A DNA stretch of 48,667 bases from Thermodiscus sp. (GTDB taxonomy: Archaea; Thermoproteota; Thermoprotei_A; Sulfolobales; Acidilobaceae): the NCBI GenBank assembly GCA_015523485.1, contig WAKH01000018.1, positions 1 through 48,667 of the forward strand, in the 5' to 3' direction. How positions within the stretch are numbered: position 1 is the stretch's first letter; the number at the start of each line of letters is the position of its first letter. Under the pieces are notes generated by a model. That model saw only the letters and a list, made by a program, of their open reading frames with translations. It searched no databases and was not told the origin of the DNA. A program made the translations under genes and the position numbers. This document shows, one piece after another, positions 19,253 to 28,659 of the stretch.

Positions 19253-20428
19253 GTGGTGCTTCTGAGAGCATCTATTGGTACAGTAGCCTTTATACTATTA
19301 GGCGCTCTAGCCATCTCTACAATGGTAAATGCTCCAGGAATCCTAGTAGGATACGGATTAATCTATGCAGTACAATACTATGCATTACTAGCATATACGC
19401 CGGTATTAGCCGTGATTTATTTCCTCGCGGCGCATATGCTCGCGTTGCCAATATTAATTTATACAAAATCAGTATTCATGATAGTTGCACTGGCTAGTTT
19501 TCTACTGAGAACACCAGCCCTCTACGCTCTAGGCAGATTAAAGCCAAAGATCGGGTCTATTGGCCTAGCTATATCGCTAGCAGGCCTAGAACAATTACTC
19601 GCTCTTTCAATTGCGATACTCTACTATGGAGATGATGGTATACATACAGGATTAGCCATATACGGTTTGTTCCTCGCTCCATTCACATACTCGATCTACA
19701 GGTTCAACCGTATAGAGAATAACAGGCTAGGAGCAGTTGCCTCGGCAATACTTCTCGTCGGTTATTGGCTAAGTGCCTACGCATTCCTATCTGTTCCACT
19801 ACTAGTAGCTACCATCGCGGGACTACTTCTGCTAAATACTACAAGGCTCGGAATAAACCGCACCTGGCTTGGCCTGGGCGCTATAATACTAGTTGTACTA
19901 GGAGCCGTTACCAGTGGAACCCCGCTTGTCTACAATGCTAAGAGTGCATTCTATCCCTTCAACCCTTACAACTGGAGTGATGATAGGTGGAGCCAGAAGG
20001 AACCCGGACTATGCCCGAACACGACAAACGTCTTCGAGAACACGCATTCACCGCCACGACTAAGAATCATAGATTCATGTATGACCGTTGAGGGAATAGT
20101 TAAACCGGTCCCGGCCATAGTGGGAGACGGCGATTTTTGCTTCGACTTAGAGGTGAATGATACCTCACTCCTCAGTATAGGCAACGTGATCCTGAGGAAG
20201 AATGGATTGCACATAGAGGTGGTTCCCGCCGATCACTTCAAAGTTTTAGGAGAAATTGGTGGAGTCTGCCCAGGCGACGTTGTGAGAGTAACAGGTGTAT
20301 TCGTTATAGATACAGATCACGGTATGTGGAGCGAGATACACCCAGCATATAAGATAGAAATCATCAAGAAAGCCGAAAACCAGACTTGGCCAGATTGCAT
20401 TAGGGGTAAGATGTATGAAGGAGGATAA
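19253..20428 (+). CDS. Polytopic membrane protein with extracellular OB-like domain
   Basis: About the first 225 residues form seven or eight transmembrane helices. The remaining ~165 are a soluble Cys-containing domain (five Cys), probably outside the cell. In it TVEGIVKP, DFCFDLEVND, HIEVVPADHF, GDVVRVTGVFVIDTDHGMW and SEIHPAY follow the pattern of a small OB-like beta-barrel domain with a terminal EIHP motif seen in secreted proteins. The start is GTG 19253 with no ribosome binding site; an AT-rich stretch 25-35 bases upstream suggests leaderless transcription. Its end overlaps the flavoenzyme gene by 14 bases, so it heads a four-gene unit. Function unknown. Confidence 0.75.
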   Translation: MVLLRASIGTVAFILLGALAISTMVNAPGILVGYGLIYAVQYYALLAYTPVLAVIYFLAAHMLALPILIYTKSVFMIVALASFLLRTPALYALGRLKPKIGSIGLAISLAGLEQLLALSIAILYYGDDGIHTGLAIYGLFLAPFTYSIYRFNRIENNRLGAVASAILLVGYWLSAYAFLSVPLLVATIAGLLLLNTTRLGINRTWLGLGAIILVVLGAVTSGTPLVYNAKSAFYPFNPYNWSDDRWSQKEPGLCPNTTNVFENTHSPPRLRIIDSCMTVEGIVKPVPAIVGDGDFCFDLEVNDTSLLSIGNVILRKNGLHIEVVPADHFKVLGEIGGVCPGDVVRVTGVFVIDTDHGMWSEIHPAYKIEIIKKAENQTWPDCIRGKMYEGG

Positions 20429-22947: not shown

Positions 22948-25900
22948 ATGGGGGACCCTATCTTGCCATACACAATAATAGCCTATGTGATCTCAGCTGT
23001 ACTGCTGATGCTGACATTATACCTGGTGATGGTTAGACTTTACGCTATCGGAGCGAGCAGGAGTATCGGACCCCTCCTCTTAAATCCCCCGTTTTCTAGG
23101 GCGACAATATGGCTTCTCAGAAGATATGCTGGAAAGGGCAAGACATCGTGGGATACTGCTATCGACGTAGCATTAAAAACAAGAAACTTATCTATTATTC
23201 ACTTAAACGCCTATCATCAATCTTGCCCAAGCGAGGAAATCATAAAGCGTCTAAGGGACATGGGCCTCTACGAGACCATAACCCTACTCTACTCTCGAGG
23301 TTGCAAAATAAGCGAGGAACTAAAGAGGGAGGCTCTGAGGTTCCATATTCTGGCAGGCCAGAAGAACTACTTGGAGGTATATGGCTTTAGACAGCCGAGG
23401 CCCACCTTGATCTCTTTCTACTGTGGGGATAGGGTTATCGAGTTATGGGATGGAGAGCGTACAATAACCAGCAAGGGTTTGCCGGATAACGCGTTCAAGA
23501 GGCTTCAAACTCTTGTTAATCCAGATCTCGCTTCAATGGCACTGGGTGCTGGTATAGCAATATCATGGGGTTGTACTGGTGGAGTTAACGCAAGGCATAT
23601 CCTTAAGACAATATATCCGGAGATCCCCTCATCGATATCAGCATTATCCTATCATCTCGGTTTAACAGGGTCAAAGGCAGAGATAGTGGGTCGCGCCACG
23701 ATCCAAGCATTCAAGATCGCATACGAGATAGGCGGGCATCAAGAGTTAGGCCTACCAGACTGGATATCTTCAATCACTGTTAGTCCTGGAGTCGAATGTA
23801 TGATAGAGCCAGGAACGATAGTTGTAACCGATACTCCGCGAGCTGCATGCCCCACTTGGTCACCTTACAGGATAGCACTAGATGGTGATAAGCCGTCAAA
23901 CCTGTCGGTTGAAGCTTGGATCGCTCTCAAATCACTAGCATATAGGAGGGCATGCTACAAATCGGTGTTATCGACGGATCAAGGAGACCCGTTACTCCAA
24001 GAGCTACGCCAAGTTATCCCATCTTTCCTCAAGGAAGGCAGTGATCCACCAGCTGAAGGGGGATTCCAGGTCCACGTATCCGATGTGAAATATCTTCGCG
24101 TCTCAAAGTATCAGGTACTCTTCGACTGTGCCAGACCCGTGAAGCAATGTGCTGCTATGGCTGGGCTCAAGCCTCCTGAGGCCATTACTGTTAAGCCCAA
24201 GGTCGCTTCATCATCGCCAGTACTTCGTGGCCCGGTTGAGGCAATCGAAGTGGCAAGAGAACTATGGGGCGGAGGACCAACCTTGTATGTTACACCTAGC
24301 ATGTTGGCATCTAAGCTAACAGCGAGTGGCTTAGGCCTGTACATAATCAGTGAGCCAGAGGACGTTGATGAGTGGCTTGACAATGGTAGTGATGCGGTAA
24401 CATCGTGGAGTGCATTACTAGATATGCCATGGCTCAAAACGCTTGCTCCCAGGATTGTCTTAGTCTATCCAGAGACATTTCCCGGTAAACCCGTCAACGT
24501 AGGTGATATAGTAGACTGGGTTCGAATGCTGGCAACAGATGTCTCTAGCCTCATGGTCTCACGCTTAGCTTACTTCCAAGATTCTGTCCTTGTAGGTGAG
24601 GCAAGAGTACCGAGGGTCTCATCTCCAATATACGATAAAAACGATCTATCCGTTGAGGCTGAAGAGGTTTTCTCAGAGTATTGGAAGGGTTACAAGTTGA
24701 GGAGTTACCAGAAATCAATAATAAAAGCTATTCTAGAAATGATAATAAATAGGCCAGTCCAGCCGGTCTACACTATACTGCCTACTGGTAGCGGTAAGAG
24801 CGCGATATTCCAAATAGCTGGCATCATTGGTAAACGGCTAGGCTATGGTGGGTACGTCCTGGTTATATCTCCTCTGAGAGCACTGATGAGAGATCAAGTT
24901 GAGAATGCGAGGAGAAGGGGATTCGCGGCCGATAGGATTGACGCCTCAGTCTCTGGAAAGAAGAAGAAACTAATTATGATGGCTGCAAAGATGGGTGCGT
25001 TAGATATACTATATGTTACCCCAGAGAGGTTTATGGATGAAGATTTCAATAAGTTAGTCATAGAGGCACCGCCCGCACTAGTAGTATTGGATGAAGCCCA
25101 TACACTAGCGAGATGGGGTCCCTCGTTCAGACCTTCATACCTACACGCGGCCAAAATAATAGCAGATATACGCTCCGCGGATGGATGGCCACCTGTAGCG
25201 CTCTTCACGGCGACAGCGCCTCAAGACGTGGTAGAGAATTCACTAGCCGCAATAGGAGTATACACATCGTCAACAGTAAATGTGAGCTTGAATGAAGAGA
25301 CGGAGTACGTGTTTCCACGTGAGGGAGCACTGGTCTTTAGAGGGCCAATAGTGAGGTCCGAACTTGTATTCGACGTTATAACTGCACCGGATGGTCCAAG
25401 CAGGGTTGACCAAGCCGCCCATGTAATTAGGGAGCTGGCCCAGTGGTCGTCTTCCTTCAAGGAACCATGGGTTGGAGTAGTATACACGGGGTTCGTGAAG
25501 AGAACTAGGAAGGAATGGGAAAATGCTGATCAACTAGCCGATCTACTAGCCGAGAAAACAGGCTTGAGTACGATAAGCTACCATGGTCAATTGAGTAGCA
25601 GGGAGAGGCGTCTCAGGGAGAACATGATATATGAGGCGAGTATGGGCAAGAGGGACCCGCTAGTAGTCGTAGCCACAAAGGCCTTTGGAATGGGAGTCGA
25701 TATACCCAACATTAGGTGGATCATACACTTTACGGCGAGCGACAGCATCGAAGACTACTACCAGGAGGTAGGCAGGGCCGGCAGGGATGGTAAAGAGGCG
25801 AGAATAGTCACATTTTACAATCCCATAGACTTCGAGGAAAGGATCAGGATGGCGAGAGCTCAGCGAACCACTCCGTCAGCAGTAGCAGTAATGTACAACA

Positions 25901-26919
25901 CTATATACATGGTGTGGAACGCTATAAGACAAAGAACAGGAGGAAGCCCAATGATCATCCTCCCCACGAACGCAATTCACCCCGATCCGCTTGGCCTAAA
26001 AGCGGTGAGCATGCTTCAGAGGCTAGGCTACCTAGATTACTGGAGCGTAAGAACAACCCTAACAGGTTACAAGTTTAAGCGTGATGAGGATCCCTCTGAT
26101 TATCTTCCATGGTATATGGATCTAGGCAACGGAATAGTAGTTGGCCCCCAAGAGAACCTCTCTGGGATAGCCGAGAAACTCCCACTACGTATACAGAGAT
26201 GTACCTCACCAATCAATGGACACAAACCCTTAATCTTGAAAGTCGGCCCACTTACAATCTCTACTGGCAAGTGCAAGGACTATATTGTGGTCGAGACAAG
26301 TAGTGTTCAAACTATGATAGTCAACCTATCACTAGACATGGATCATAAGCCCTTAGAGTACTTCCCACCAGCAGACTACCATTACGTAGTCACCACCATG
26401 TGGAGCGAGGAAGAAAAAGTAGAGGCTTTACACAATCTCCTAGAATCTGCTATTGAGGCATCTAAGAAATCTAAGGATTTAACAAATCAAGTGTTAAGAT
26501 CGGGCCTAGAAGCCTATTTCTCAGACTCGCACCTTACAACGCCAAGCGACCCGCCAGCGAGCCTATTGGGGAAGAGATCGGCCTGCCCTACAATAGCTGA
26601 GTGCTTAGATGATATAGTGAAGATGATGATCCGTGCAACTGAATGGATCGGTGAGAGGGGTGTAACACTAGCTGTACAGAACGAGGAATGGGCGGATGCT
26701 ATAATAAGGCGTTATACCTCGATTACAGGGAAGCCTTTCAAAGGTACTTGGAAGGGGTCCTACGCACGGATTGTTAATGCTAGTCGTAGGAGTTGGGTTC
26801 ACCTGATGGATTATGGTTTCCTCATAGCTGTCGTTCGAGGTTCGCCGCGTCCCAGTGTTCTCATCGATAGGTTACGTGGCTACCCTTACCATGCGCTATT
26901 CATATACAATAAGGCATAA
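22948..26919 (+). CDS. Very large membrane-anchored RecQ-like SF2 helicase
   Basis: The 1,323 residues start with a transmembrane helix (about 8-32, IIAYVISAVLLMLTLYLVMV), then ~550 residues I do not recognise. A complete SF2 core follows: YKLRSYQKSII (582-592), Walker A PTGSGKS (612-618), DEAH (715-718), TATAP, ATKAFGMGVDIPNIRWIIHF, and YYQEVGRAGRDG (937-948). The GMGVD and QE.GRAGRDG motifs are RecQ-type. Another ~370 residues follow without the RecQ zinc or HRDC signatures. RecQ helicases unwind DNA 3'-5' and are normally soluble and half this size. The N-terminal anchor and flanks are unusual. It lies 27 bases after the DAO gene, likely the same transcript. Confidence 0.88.
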   Translation: MGDPILPYTIIAYVISAVLLMLTLYLVMVRLYAIGASRSIGPLLLNPPFSRATIWLLRRYAGKGKTSWDTAIDVALKTRNLSIIHLNAYHQSCPSEEIIKRLRDMGLYETITLLYSRGCKISEELKREALRFHILAGQKNYLEVYGFRQPRPTLISFYCGDRVIELWDGERTITSKGLPDNAFKRLQTLVNPDLASMALGAGIAISWGCTGGVNARHILKTIYPEIPSSISALSYHLGLTGSKAEIVGRATIQAFKIAYEIGGHQELGLPDWISSITVSPGVECMIEPGTIVVTDTPRAACPTWSPYRIALDGDKPSNLSVEAWIALKSLAYRRACYKSVLSTDQGDPLLQELRQVIPSFLKEGSDPPAEGGFQVHVSDVKYLRVSKYQVLFDCARPVKQCAAMAGLKPPEAITVKPKVASSSPVLRGPVEAIEVARELWGGGPTLYVTPSMLASKLTASGLGLYIISEPEDVDEWLDNGSDAVTSWSALLDMPWLKTLAPRIVLVYPETFPGKPVNVGDIVDWVRMLATDVSSLMVSRLAYFQDSVLVGEARVPRVSSPIYDKNDLSVEAEEVFSEYWKGYKLRSYQKSIIKAILEMIINRPVQPVYTILPTGSGKSAIFQIAGIIGKRLGYGGYVLVISPLRALMRDQVENARRRGFAADRIDASVSGKKKKLIMMAAKMGALDILYVTPERFMDEDFNKLVIEAPPALVVLDEAHTLARWGPSFRPSYLHAAKIIADIRSADGWPPVALFTATAPQDVVENSLAAIGVYTSSTVNVSLNEETEYVFPREGALVFRGPIVRSELVFDVITAPDGPSRVDQAAHVIRELAQWSSSFKEPWVGVVYTGFVKRTRKEWENADQLADLLAEKTGLSTISYHGQLSSRERRLRENMIYEASMGKRDPLVVVATKAFGMGVDIPNIRWIIHFTASDSIEDYYQEVGRAGRDGKEARIVTFYNPIDFEERIRMARAQRTTPSAVAVMYNTIYMVWNAIRQRTGGSPMIILPTNAIHPDPLGLKAVSMLQRLGYLDYWSVRTTLTGYKFKRDEDPSDYLPWYMDLGNGIVVGPQENLSGIAEKLPLRIQRCTSPINGHKPLILKVGPLTISTGKCKDYIVVETSSVQTMIVNLSLDMDHKPLEYFPPADYHYVVTTMWSEEEKVEALHNLLESAIEASKKSKDLTNQVLRSGLEAYFSDSHLTTPSDPPASLLGKRSACPTIAECLDDIVKMMIRATEWIGERGVTLAVQNEEWADAIIRRYTSITGKPFKGTWKGSYARIVNASRRSWVHLMDYGFLIAVVRGSPRPSVLIDRLRGYPYHALFIYNKA

Positions 26920-26921
26920 AT

Positions 26922-27392
26922 TTAACATTTTTCATTTATTACATCGCCTAGCCTCTCGTACCCTTGCCTGATTATCTTACAGATCTCTTCATACTCTTTC
27001 TGCATGCCAAGATTCTTTAATGCGATAGCACCATCGATGATGTAGAATATAATTACATCGAATTTAGCCCTAGCCTTTTCTTTTATAATCCTTGCTGCCT
27101 CCTGCACGCCCTTCTCGGTTAGCTTGTATACTATCCGCCTGCCACCTCTCACGTTTGATACGGCAATCTCAGCGACTTCAATTAATCCCTCCTGCCTCAA
27201 CTGGTCTAAGAGTGGGTACAAGGTACCGGCAGCGGGTTTCCACCTGTTGTTTGTTACTTCTTTGATCTTCTTCATGATTTCATATCCATGCATAGGTCCG
27301 TCGAGAAGTATCCGCATTACTAGGTTCCTAAGGGATTCTTTGTATACTGTTGATCCCTTCTCTTTGTACTCTCCTTTCAACCTGCCCTCCAT
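26922..27392 (-). CDS. PadR-family transcriptional regulator
   Basis: The signature MRILLDGPMHGYEIMKKIKE...WKPAAGTLYPLLDQLRQEGLI is the PadR winged helix. A C-terminal helical region (from about residue 105) mediates dimerisation and often ligand binding. The track starts at GTG 27401, but ATG 27392 follows AGGTG by six bases and is preferred (156 residues). PadR proteins usually repress nearby transporter or membrane genes. Here the closest divergent reading frame is only a 30-codon hydrophobic ORF, so its target may be elsewhere. The stop is three bases from the helicase stop (convergent). Confidence 0.9.
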   Translation of the reverse strand: MEGRLKGEYKEKGSTVYKESLRNLVMRILLDGPMHGYEIMKKIKEVTNNRWKPAAGTLYPLLDQLRQEGLIEVAEIAVSNVRGGRRIVYKLTEKGVQEAARIIKEKARAKFDVIIFYIIDGAIALKNLGMQKEYEEICKIIRQGYERLGDVINEKC

Positions 27393-27523
27393 CAATTGCA
27401 CCTGTATTCTAAAATGCGATATAACAGGGTATGATATATTTTCATGAGAATGGGGGTTCCTAGACTGGCGTCCATCCTCATCGGTATGTCCTCGGCAATA
27501 CCAGCCCTCTTCACAACCCCCAT

Positions 27524-27558: not shown

Positions 27559-28659
27559 TCACGACAATAGTCCATTGGCTATTTCACTTATAGTGATGTT
27601 CTTTTCTTGCGCTGTAATCGCTTTTAGCAGGGCTGTTGAAGAGTCAACTACATCAGACACGTCGATCGACTCTATTTGATCGTTTAACCCGATTAAGGAG
27701 GCCACCGGTTTTTTGCCTACGAGGTACAGTATACTCCCTTTGCCATGAGTATATGATTCGAATACTCTTTGTTCGACGTTTTTATTTAATATTAAATAGG
27801 GATAAGGGCACCTGTTGCCTGAACATATCCTTAGAACCTTGCCTGTACCTTCATTGACATAATAGTTAAACGGTACTACAATAGAGCCTAAGATTTCAAG
27901 TAATGGATTATTTGGAGTTTCAAAGCCTGCATTTGAGACCCATGCCGCTTCGGCTCCCACGATTATGGAAGTGAGGTCAACATCTGTAACGATTACATGG
28001 TCTGGCCTGTATCTTGTAATTGAATGATAGGAGGATGAGAGGAGTGTCCATATTTCCCTCCTTAGGGTGTGCTGGAGAGTATCGTGTAATAGTCTAGTAT
28101 GCAATATCCTGGTATCCTTGGAAACGAGCTTCTTTATGGTATCTGCTAGTCCCTTAATTTCATCCATCCTGTAGATGCCGTGTATAAAGTCTTGGCACTT
28201 CCTCTTTATGCTTCTCAGTTTTGGGAAATGACTTGCCATTTCCTCGTAGATCGCTACTACAAGAGGAGATATCCTGCAAAAGGCTTCTGCTGTCATCGGG
28301 TTTGCTTTTAGATTATGCGTTAAACTAATCCATTTTATGCAGGATTTTGTTGGGTTATATGTCTGGAGCAAATAATTGATTCTGTCTAGTATGGATCCCT
28401 TTTTCCTTCTCAAGTGGTCTGATGCTAGATTGTATGCAAGTAGGACAGCCTGGCACGGATCATTCACCTTATACGTTTTCTTCTGGCTATGGCTTACAAC
28501 GATGAAATGGTCGCCGTTATAGACGAGTTTGACACCGTTCTTATTGCCGGTGAACCAGAAGCCATCACTGGTTTCCAGAATATACTCGTCTTTTACTTCA
28601 TGGGCTTTGAACCCAAGGGCTGACGCGGCAAGCAGTATATCTCTATCCTTGCAATACAA
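27559..28659 (-). CDS. Protein of unknown function, 366 residues
   Basis: This is a long ORF with ordinary codon use and no overlap with other genes. I recognise no family. The N-terminus alternates short strands (YILETSDGFWFTGNKNGVKLVYNGDHFIVVSH). The middle is helical and basic with several Cys and His (KSCIKWISLTHNLKANPM, RKCQDFIHGIY). The C-terminal part includes DHVIVTDVDLTSIIVGAEAAW and SGNRCPYPYLILNKN. No transmembrane segment is obvious. The start is TTG 28659 in the track, which has only a weak GGGGGC upstream; no nearby ATG improves on it. It is divergent from dphB with a 62-base promoter gap. Confidence 0.65.
   Translation of the reverse strand: MYCKDRDILLAASALGFKAHEVKDEYILETSDGFWFTGNKNGVKLVYNGDHFIVVSHSQKKTYKVNDPCQAVLLAYNLASDHLRRKKGSILDRINYLLQTYNPTKSCIKWISLTHNLKANPMTAEAFCRISPLVVAIYEEMASHFPKLRSIKRKCQDFIHGIYRMDEIKGLADTIKKLVSKDTRILHTRLLHDTLQHTLRREIWTLLSSSYHSITRYRPDHVIVTDVDLTSIIVGAEAAWVSNAGFETPNNPLLEILGSIVVPFNYYVNEGTGKVLRICSGNRCPYPYLILNKNVEQRVFESYTHGKGSILYLVGKKPVASLIGLNDQIESIDVSDVVDSSTALLKAITAQEKNITISEIANGLLS

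Follow-up and report, generated by a model that had tools for sequence, protein, structure and literature searches.

A RecQ-type helicase with an unusual, conserved architecture in the archaeal family Acidilobaceae

The window (the whole stretch of DNA that was analysed, 48,667 nucleotides of contig WAKH01000018.1, assembly GCA_015523485.1) belongs to Thermodiscus sp. of the family Acidilobaceae and comes from a draft assembly of 1.3 Mb in 110 contigs with a completeness of 88%. One long open reading frame of 1,323 residues lies at positions 22948-26919, and the coordinates proposed for it in the first-pass annotation are exact from ATG to stop codon. The features of this gene and of its convergent neighbour are the following (G302 is a genome from another order of the same phylum, which encodes a relative considered below).

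22948..26919, + strand: whole gene, 1,323-aa protein (open reading frame; ATG at 22948, stop at 26917-26919)
22975..23031, + strand: N-terminal hydrophobic helix, residues 10-28 (hydropathy; shared by G302 and 16 of 31 orthologs)
23134..23367, + strand: short helical hairpin, approximately residues 63-140 (single-sequence model, pLDDT about 70-89 for residues 63-122)
23368..24207, + strand: N1 region, approximately residues 141-420 (alignment; Cys 209, 394 and 401; first part possibly a degenerate DEDDh exonuclease)
24220..24627, + strand: N2 region, residues 425-560 (alignment; invariant P508-E509, PE in 31 of 31 orthologs)
24670..25902, + strand: RecQ helicase core, residues 575-985 (Pfam, NCBIfam, PDB profile, predicted structure)
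24781..24801, + strand: Walker A motif PTGSGKS, residues 612-618 (G614, G616, K617 and S618 in 31 of 31 orthologs)
25090..25101, + strand: DEAH box, residues 715-718, then the aromatic-rich loop with W723, F727 and R728 (31 of 31 orthologs)
25762..25791, + strand: motif VI, QEVGRAGRDG, residues 939-948 (Q939, G942, R943 and R946 in 31 of 31 orthologs)
25960..26052, + strand: putative winged-helix-like stretch, approximately residues 1005-1035 (alignment pattern by eye, low model confidence)
26200..26604, + strand: span of C1085, C1109, C1213 and C1219, candidate metal site (complete set in 28 of 31 orthologs)
26922..27401, - strand: convergent PadR-type regulator (Pfam PF03551, E 4e-19; 17 of 33 loci)

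The helicase core is the part of the protein that is most readily named. The full set of SF2/RecQ motifs claimed for it at first reading is intact (approximately residues 575-985) and includes the RecQ-type motif 0, aromatic-rich loop and motif VI, while the Pfam models DEAD and Helicase_C match above their cut-offs. In the alignment of 31 orthologs the residues Q588, G614, G616, K617, S618, D715, E716, H718, W723, F727, R728, R923, Q939, G942, R943 and R946 are unchanged throughout, and in motif III T754 is found in 30 and T756 in 26 of the sequences, with serine in the remainder. Because the motor residues are invariant across these orthologs, the RecQ motor of the window protein is expected to be active. 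Searched against PDB, the family profile found RecQ catalytic cores (E 6e-75 for 1oyw) in a match that covers the core only, and the predicted structure of the core also resembles RecQ structures (4tmu, E 7e-27). This resemblance does not count as evidence separate from the sequence match, since the alignment behind the model contained bacterial RecQ cores.

The assignment to the RecQ family has definite limits. Among the NCBIfam models recQ scores highest, at 222 bits (E 9e-66) against an equivalog cut-off of 640, and recQ_fam reaches 186 bits, below its cut-off of 219.8, so that the curated RecQ family thresholds are not passed. The absence of the RQC, RecQ_Zn_bind and HRDC domains was correctly noticed before, as Pfam gives no match to any of them even when E values up to 1 are allowed. 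Some RecQ proteins lack a canonical RQC, and for this reason its absence lowers the case for RecQ membership without ending it; we therefore call the protein a RecQ-type helicase and not an orthodox RecQ. Compared with the RecQ family (bacterial RecQ, BLM, WRN, RECQ1/4/5) it shares the whole SF2 motor, motif 0, the aromatic-rich loop, the QExGRAGRDG signature and the best solved-structure matches, while it differs by having no recognised RQC, RecQ zinc or HRDC region, by the predicted anchor and the flanks of about 570 and 340 residues, and by belonging to a clade separate from bacterial RecQs. In the RecQ-core tree the Acidilobaceae proteins form one group (89/92) with the G302 protein as its sister, and both together are split from 38 bacterial RecQs at 100/100. 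Among archaea, a RecQ-like helicase of Sulfolobus, Hel112, is cited in PMC8708640.

By tblastn 235 of 72,556 plasmid records matched, the core matches being in bacteria and the top one extending to residue 454, and among 50,697 phage records 29 matched the core, bacterial by the organism names in the tally. The search of a wider contig set with the core alignment (A1), with named archaea and other archaeal phyla outside the sample, gave at least 80 loci among the matches listed, all bacterial by their titles, and a contig scan with the single window protein gave 36 pattern matches and no relatives.

The long flanks noticed at first reading are confirmed, with about 570 residues before the core and about 340 after it. 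They received no name from the Pfam scan or from profile searches, and a profile search of PDB with each of N1, N2 and the C-terminal flank, with E values allowed up to 10, gave nothing significant. Two candidates were considered and rejected: a degenerate RecA domain in N2, for which hhalign against the first RecA domain gave a probability of 8%, and Oxidored_q6 in N1, a weak Pfam match in 2 of 23 members (best E 0.005) that was taken as chance. Structure prediction, suggested earlier as a way to the identity of the flanks, was informative for the core, which matches RecQ in the model of residues 560-1323, and for little else, since the N-terminal flank as a single sequence reached a mean pLDDT of 38.9 and exceeded this level clearly only in the hairpin. 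Confidence in the C-terminal flank is mostly below 60, and because of this no fold is claimed for it.

Conserved cysteines were found in both flanks. The three of N1 are kept in 24-25 of 31 orthologs, where genus g4 differs and genus g6 has no such region. The four of the C-terminal flank call for a correction to the earlier description, which named no RQC zinc site: they are a candidate metal site, all of them being kept in 28 orthologs; C1085 and C1109 are absent in genus g4. Most genera possess proteins of 1,318-1,459 aa, and genus g6, which has no N1 region, possesses proteins of 816-904 aa.

The N-terminal transmembrane helix reported by the first-pass annotation was confirmed by hydropathy, with a Kyte-Doolittle 19-residue mean of 2.55 at residues 10-28. 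The start codon, on which the helix depends, also holds up: in both members of the genus whose N-terminus can be read, 57% and 50% identical in protein sequence, the hydrophobic segment is at the same place, the start of one of them (L032) being TTG. In the other (L033:2360-6292, - strand) the frame is open through the helix and contains no ATG, GTG or TTG before the equivalent of residue 157 of the window protein, which suggests either a different start codon or an error in the sequence. The helix is present in 16 orthologs, 14 of which were read directly, the others being L033, with its open frame, and L050, with a gap-cut gene. The latter (L050:5893-10070, - strand) appears as two open reading frames from unknown bases (X), which is an assembly gap and not a split gene. 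Two sequences (L047, L036) lie slightly below the hydropathy threshold, and a hydrophobic stretch that lies deeper in the chain of a third (L057) was not counted.

In the window protein the net charge is -1 before the helix and +3 after it, placing the positive charge on the helicase side, and in all 16 anchored orthologs and in G302 the net charge after the helix is higher than before. This pattern points to a cytoplasmic motor, as the positive-inside rule asks. Thus the anchored form is real as judged by sequence and would put the motor on the cytoplasmic face of the membrane. No membrane-anchored archaeal RecQ was reported in the literature searched, as judged by titles.

The anchor is nevertheless not indispensable, because it is missing in 15 of the 31 orthologs, namely in genera g12, g13, g4 and g6 and in L051, and two of the genomes concerned (G016, G024) are single contigs. 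This absence is what favours the explanation that the helix is incidental and all members act in the cytosol. We consider this unlikely, since the helix is kept in 16 orthologs at low sequence identity and in G302, while a lone N-terminal segment of such kind occurs in 11 of 213 neighbouring genes of at least 250 aa. As the anchor is present both within the family and in an outside relative, it looks ancestral; probably it is old and was then lost about four times, the number of losses needed by eye on the RecQ-core tree with G302 as an anchored outgroup.

The distribution of the gene is narrow and dense. Of the 36 genomes examined from the family 33 have an ortholog, and at E 1e-20 there is none in 24 genomes from ten other families of the order; the three family genomes without an ortholog (G002, G014, G029) have completeness values of 74, 55 and 66%. 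Across 398 sampled genomes of the phylum, all 15 from the family were matched by the C-terminal profile and 14 of these 15 by the N1 profile, with 0 of the 383 others matched by either, and the one missed by N1 (G009) belongs to genus g6, whose short orthologs lack this region. Taken together, a predicted membrane anchor, a RecQ core and large unrecognised flanks are a real and conserved architecture, and the window protein is a RecQ variant of unusual build.

The commonest neighbour is the convergent PadR regulator (17 of 33 loci), followed by an upstream TFB gene and a YdjM-like membrane protein (7 of 33 loci each, by Pfam); all these counts are lower bounds, as many loci end at contig ends. 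The recurrent neighbours are kept within genera, and the other neighbours are by eye ordinary metabolic and information-processing genes. Beside the PadR gene the window also contains a 366-aa open reading frame (27559-28659, - strand) with no Pfam match above cut-off, which occurs at 4 of the 33 loci, all within one genus. Near-universal presence and ordinary neighbours favour a housekeeping gene and argue against a defence system. Hel308, the archaeal repair helicase, is likewise a member of SF2, but it is a separate gene that stands alongside in 32 of the 36 family genomes, so that the window protein comes on top of Hel308 rather than in its place and does not simply fill a gap.

The one relative found outside the family is the 1,515-aa protein of G302 (L199:4436-8983, - strand), which consists of an N-terminal helix (hydropathy 3.37), a DEDDh-like exonuclease and a RecQ core in this WRN-like order. 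The family core profile gives its core 431 bits and bacterial RecQs no more than 269. The exonuclease is recognised by Pfam slightly below the cut-offs, as DNApol_Exo (E 2e-5, 24.3 bits against 26.7) and RNase_T (E 5e-4, 21.0 bits against 24), and its motifs LDIET, GHN and HDPVEDA were read by eye. Similarity to WRN lies in this exonuclease placed before a RecQ core of the window's clade, while the anchor is a difference, as is the lack of a recognisable exonuclease, RQC and HRDC in the window protein. The window protein itself shows no recognisable RecQ accessory domain of a known type in its flanks; G302 has its DEDDh-like exonuclease at the corresponding place.

By hhalign the N-terminal 680 residues of G302 align with the family N1+N2 profile over 305 columns, in order, with a score of 29.6, and N1 is collinear with the exonuclease region. 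None of 250 control proteins and none of 60 shuffles scored as high, the best control being close (28.0 against 29.6), and unlike G302 none of the 250 controls spanned at least 200 columns. The second and third exonuclease motifs align with positions at which conserved acidic residues are missing from the family. The direct comparisons, which count against this correspondence, were negative: an exonuclease profile against N1 gave 10.6 over 15 columns, none of 27 single family members aligned meaningfully with 29 exonucleases, and the helical stretch alone and the last 119 residues alone were equalled against G302 by 32 and 75 of 300 controls, respectively. The whole C-terminal flank against G302 was equalled by none of 250 controls and by one of 74 bacterial RecQ C-termini (29.8 against 29.5), and the N1 and C-flank profile searches at E 1e-3 did not match the G302 flanks, though this genome is in the phylum sample.

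These alignments are suggestive, and we give about an even chance to N1 being a catalytically dead DEDDh exonuclease that matches the one of G302. If so, part of the N-terminal flank would be what is left of a WRN-type exonuclease, an accessory domain already known from RecQ helicases. Probably the ancestral form was an anchored exonuclease-helicase like G302. A more far-reaching proposal, in which a membrane-tethered WRN-like archaeal lineage has the exonuclease dead in one family and kept in G302, processing single strands at the membrane during DNA exchange or segregation, seems improbable to us. The G302 type itself is rare, since this genome alone has it among 81 of its class, 45 of its order and 25 of its family. 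Possibly its contig is misbinned, because a gene beside the locus shows mostly 43-49% identity to sequences of G302's own family, with fragments at 32-58%, and 41-48% to those of the window's order, and was not found in the four other genomes of the G302 genus.

As to function, a chromosomal, vertically inherited DNA-maintenance helicase is our tentative preference, held at a little less than an even chance, and housekeeping repair or recombination is favoured over defence because the distribution is vertical and not island-like. RecQ motors move with 3'->5' polarity, and the protein would unwind DNA in this direction as RecQ, BLM and WRN do, remodelling recombination or fork intermediates, with branched or resected DNA as the presumable substrate. 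The winged-helix-like stretch and the four-cysteine region might stand in for RQC in DNA binding. The N-terminal region might serve as a DNA- or protein-binding platform, perhaps as an exonuclease of the DEDDh type that has lost its activity, and the anchor, kept in about half of the lineages, would bring the helicase activity to the membrane.

A tethered helicase could alternatively take part in crenarchaeal DNA exchange, separating strands for the Ced machinery or receiving single strands from it. The predicted anchor with the motor on the cytoplasmic side suits such a role; moreover, according to PMC9905601, A. pernix builds CedA1 pili, the transferred DNA is most likely single-stranded, and the source of the single strands is an unanswered question. 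The proposal is improbable to about the same degree as the WRN-like lineage, since the gene has a much narrower range than Ced (PMC11868833) and was not found in any of the 24 genomes from other families of the order, the genus taken to be Aeropyrum has no helix, and no ced genes were recognised among the genes adjacent to the helicase.

Chromosome segregation or decatenation at the membrane, together with a topoisomerase, is equally doubtful. Type IA topoisomerases are partners of RecQ in other organisms, and an anchor combined with a RecQ core would fit this partnership; however, no topoisomerase or segregation genes were recognised among the recurrent neighbours, and the anchor is dispensable.

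The weakest explanation, an antiviral helicase of the DpdF, PsyrT or BREX-helicase kind, is highly improbable, and with it the earlier suggestion of defence against incoming DNA is disfavoured: the PADLOC matches to DpdF (225 bits) and PsyrT (207 bits) cover only the RecQ-like helicase core, as they would in any RecQ, the NCBIfam DpdF model reaches 137 bits against a cut-off of 550 with neither a whole-protein match nor dpd neighbours, the flanks are left unmatched, no system partners or other defence genes were recognised beside the gene, and instead of the patchy gain and loss expected of defence the gene is near-universal in the family, with genera kept together in the tree and ordinary genes around it.

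The RecQ-type motor is thus the product of a core gene of a whole hyperthermophile family, probably including cultured genera, and 0 of 398 sampled genomes of the phylum pass the curated RecQ-family cut-off. Should the anchored form prove to be a genuine DNA helicase of the membrane, it would stand apart from most RecQ proteins and offer a concrete candidate for the processing of DNA strands at the membrane of archaea. Elsewhere in the window a 391-aa open reading frame (19253-20428, + strand), with no Pfam matches at E up to 1, contains many hydrophobic stretches.
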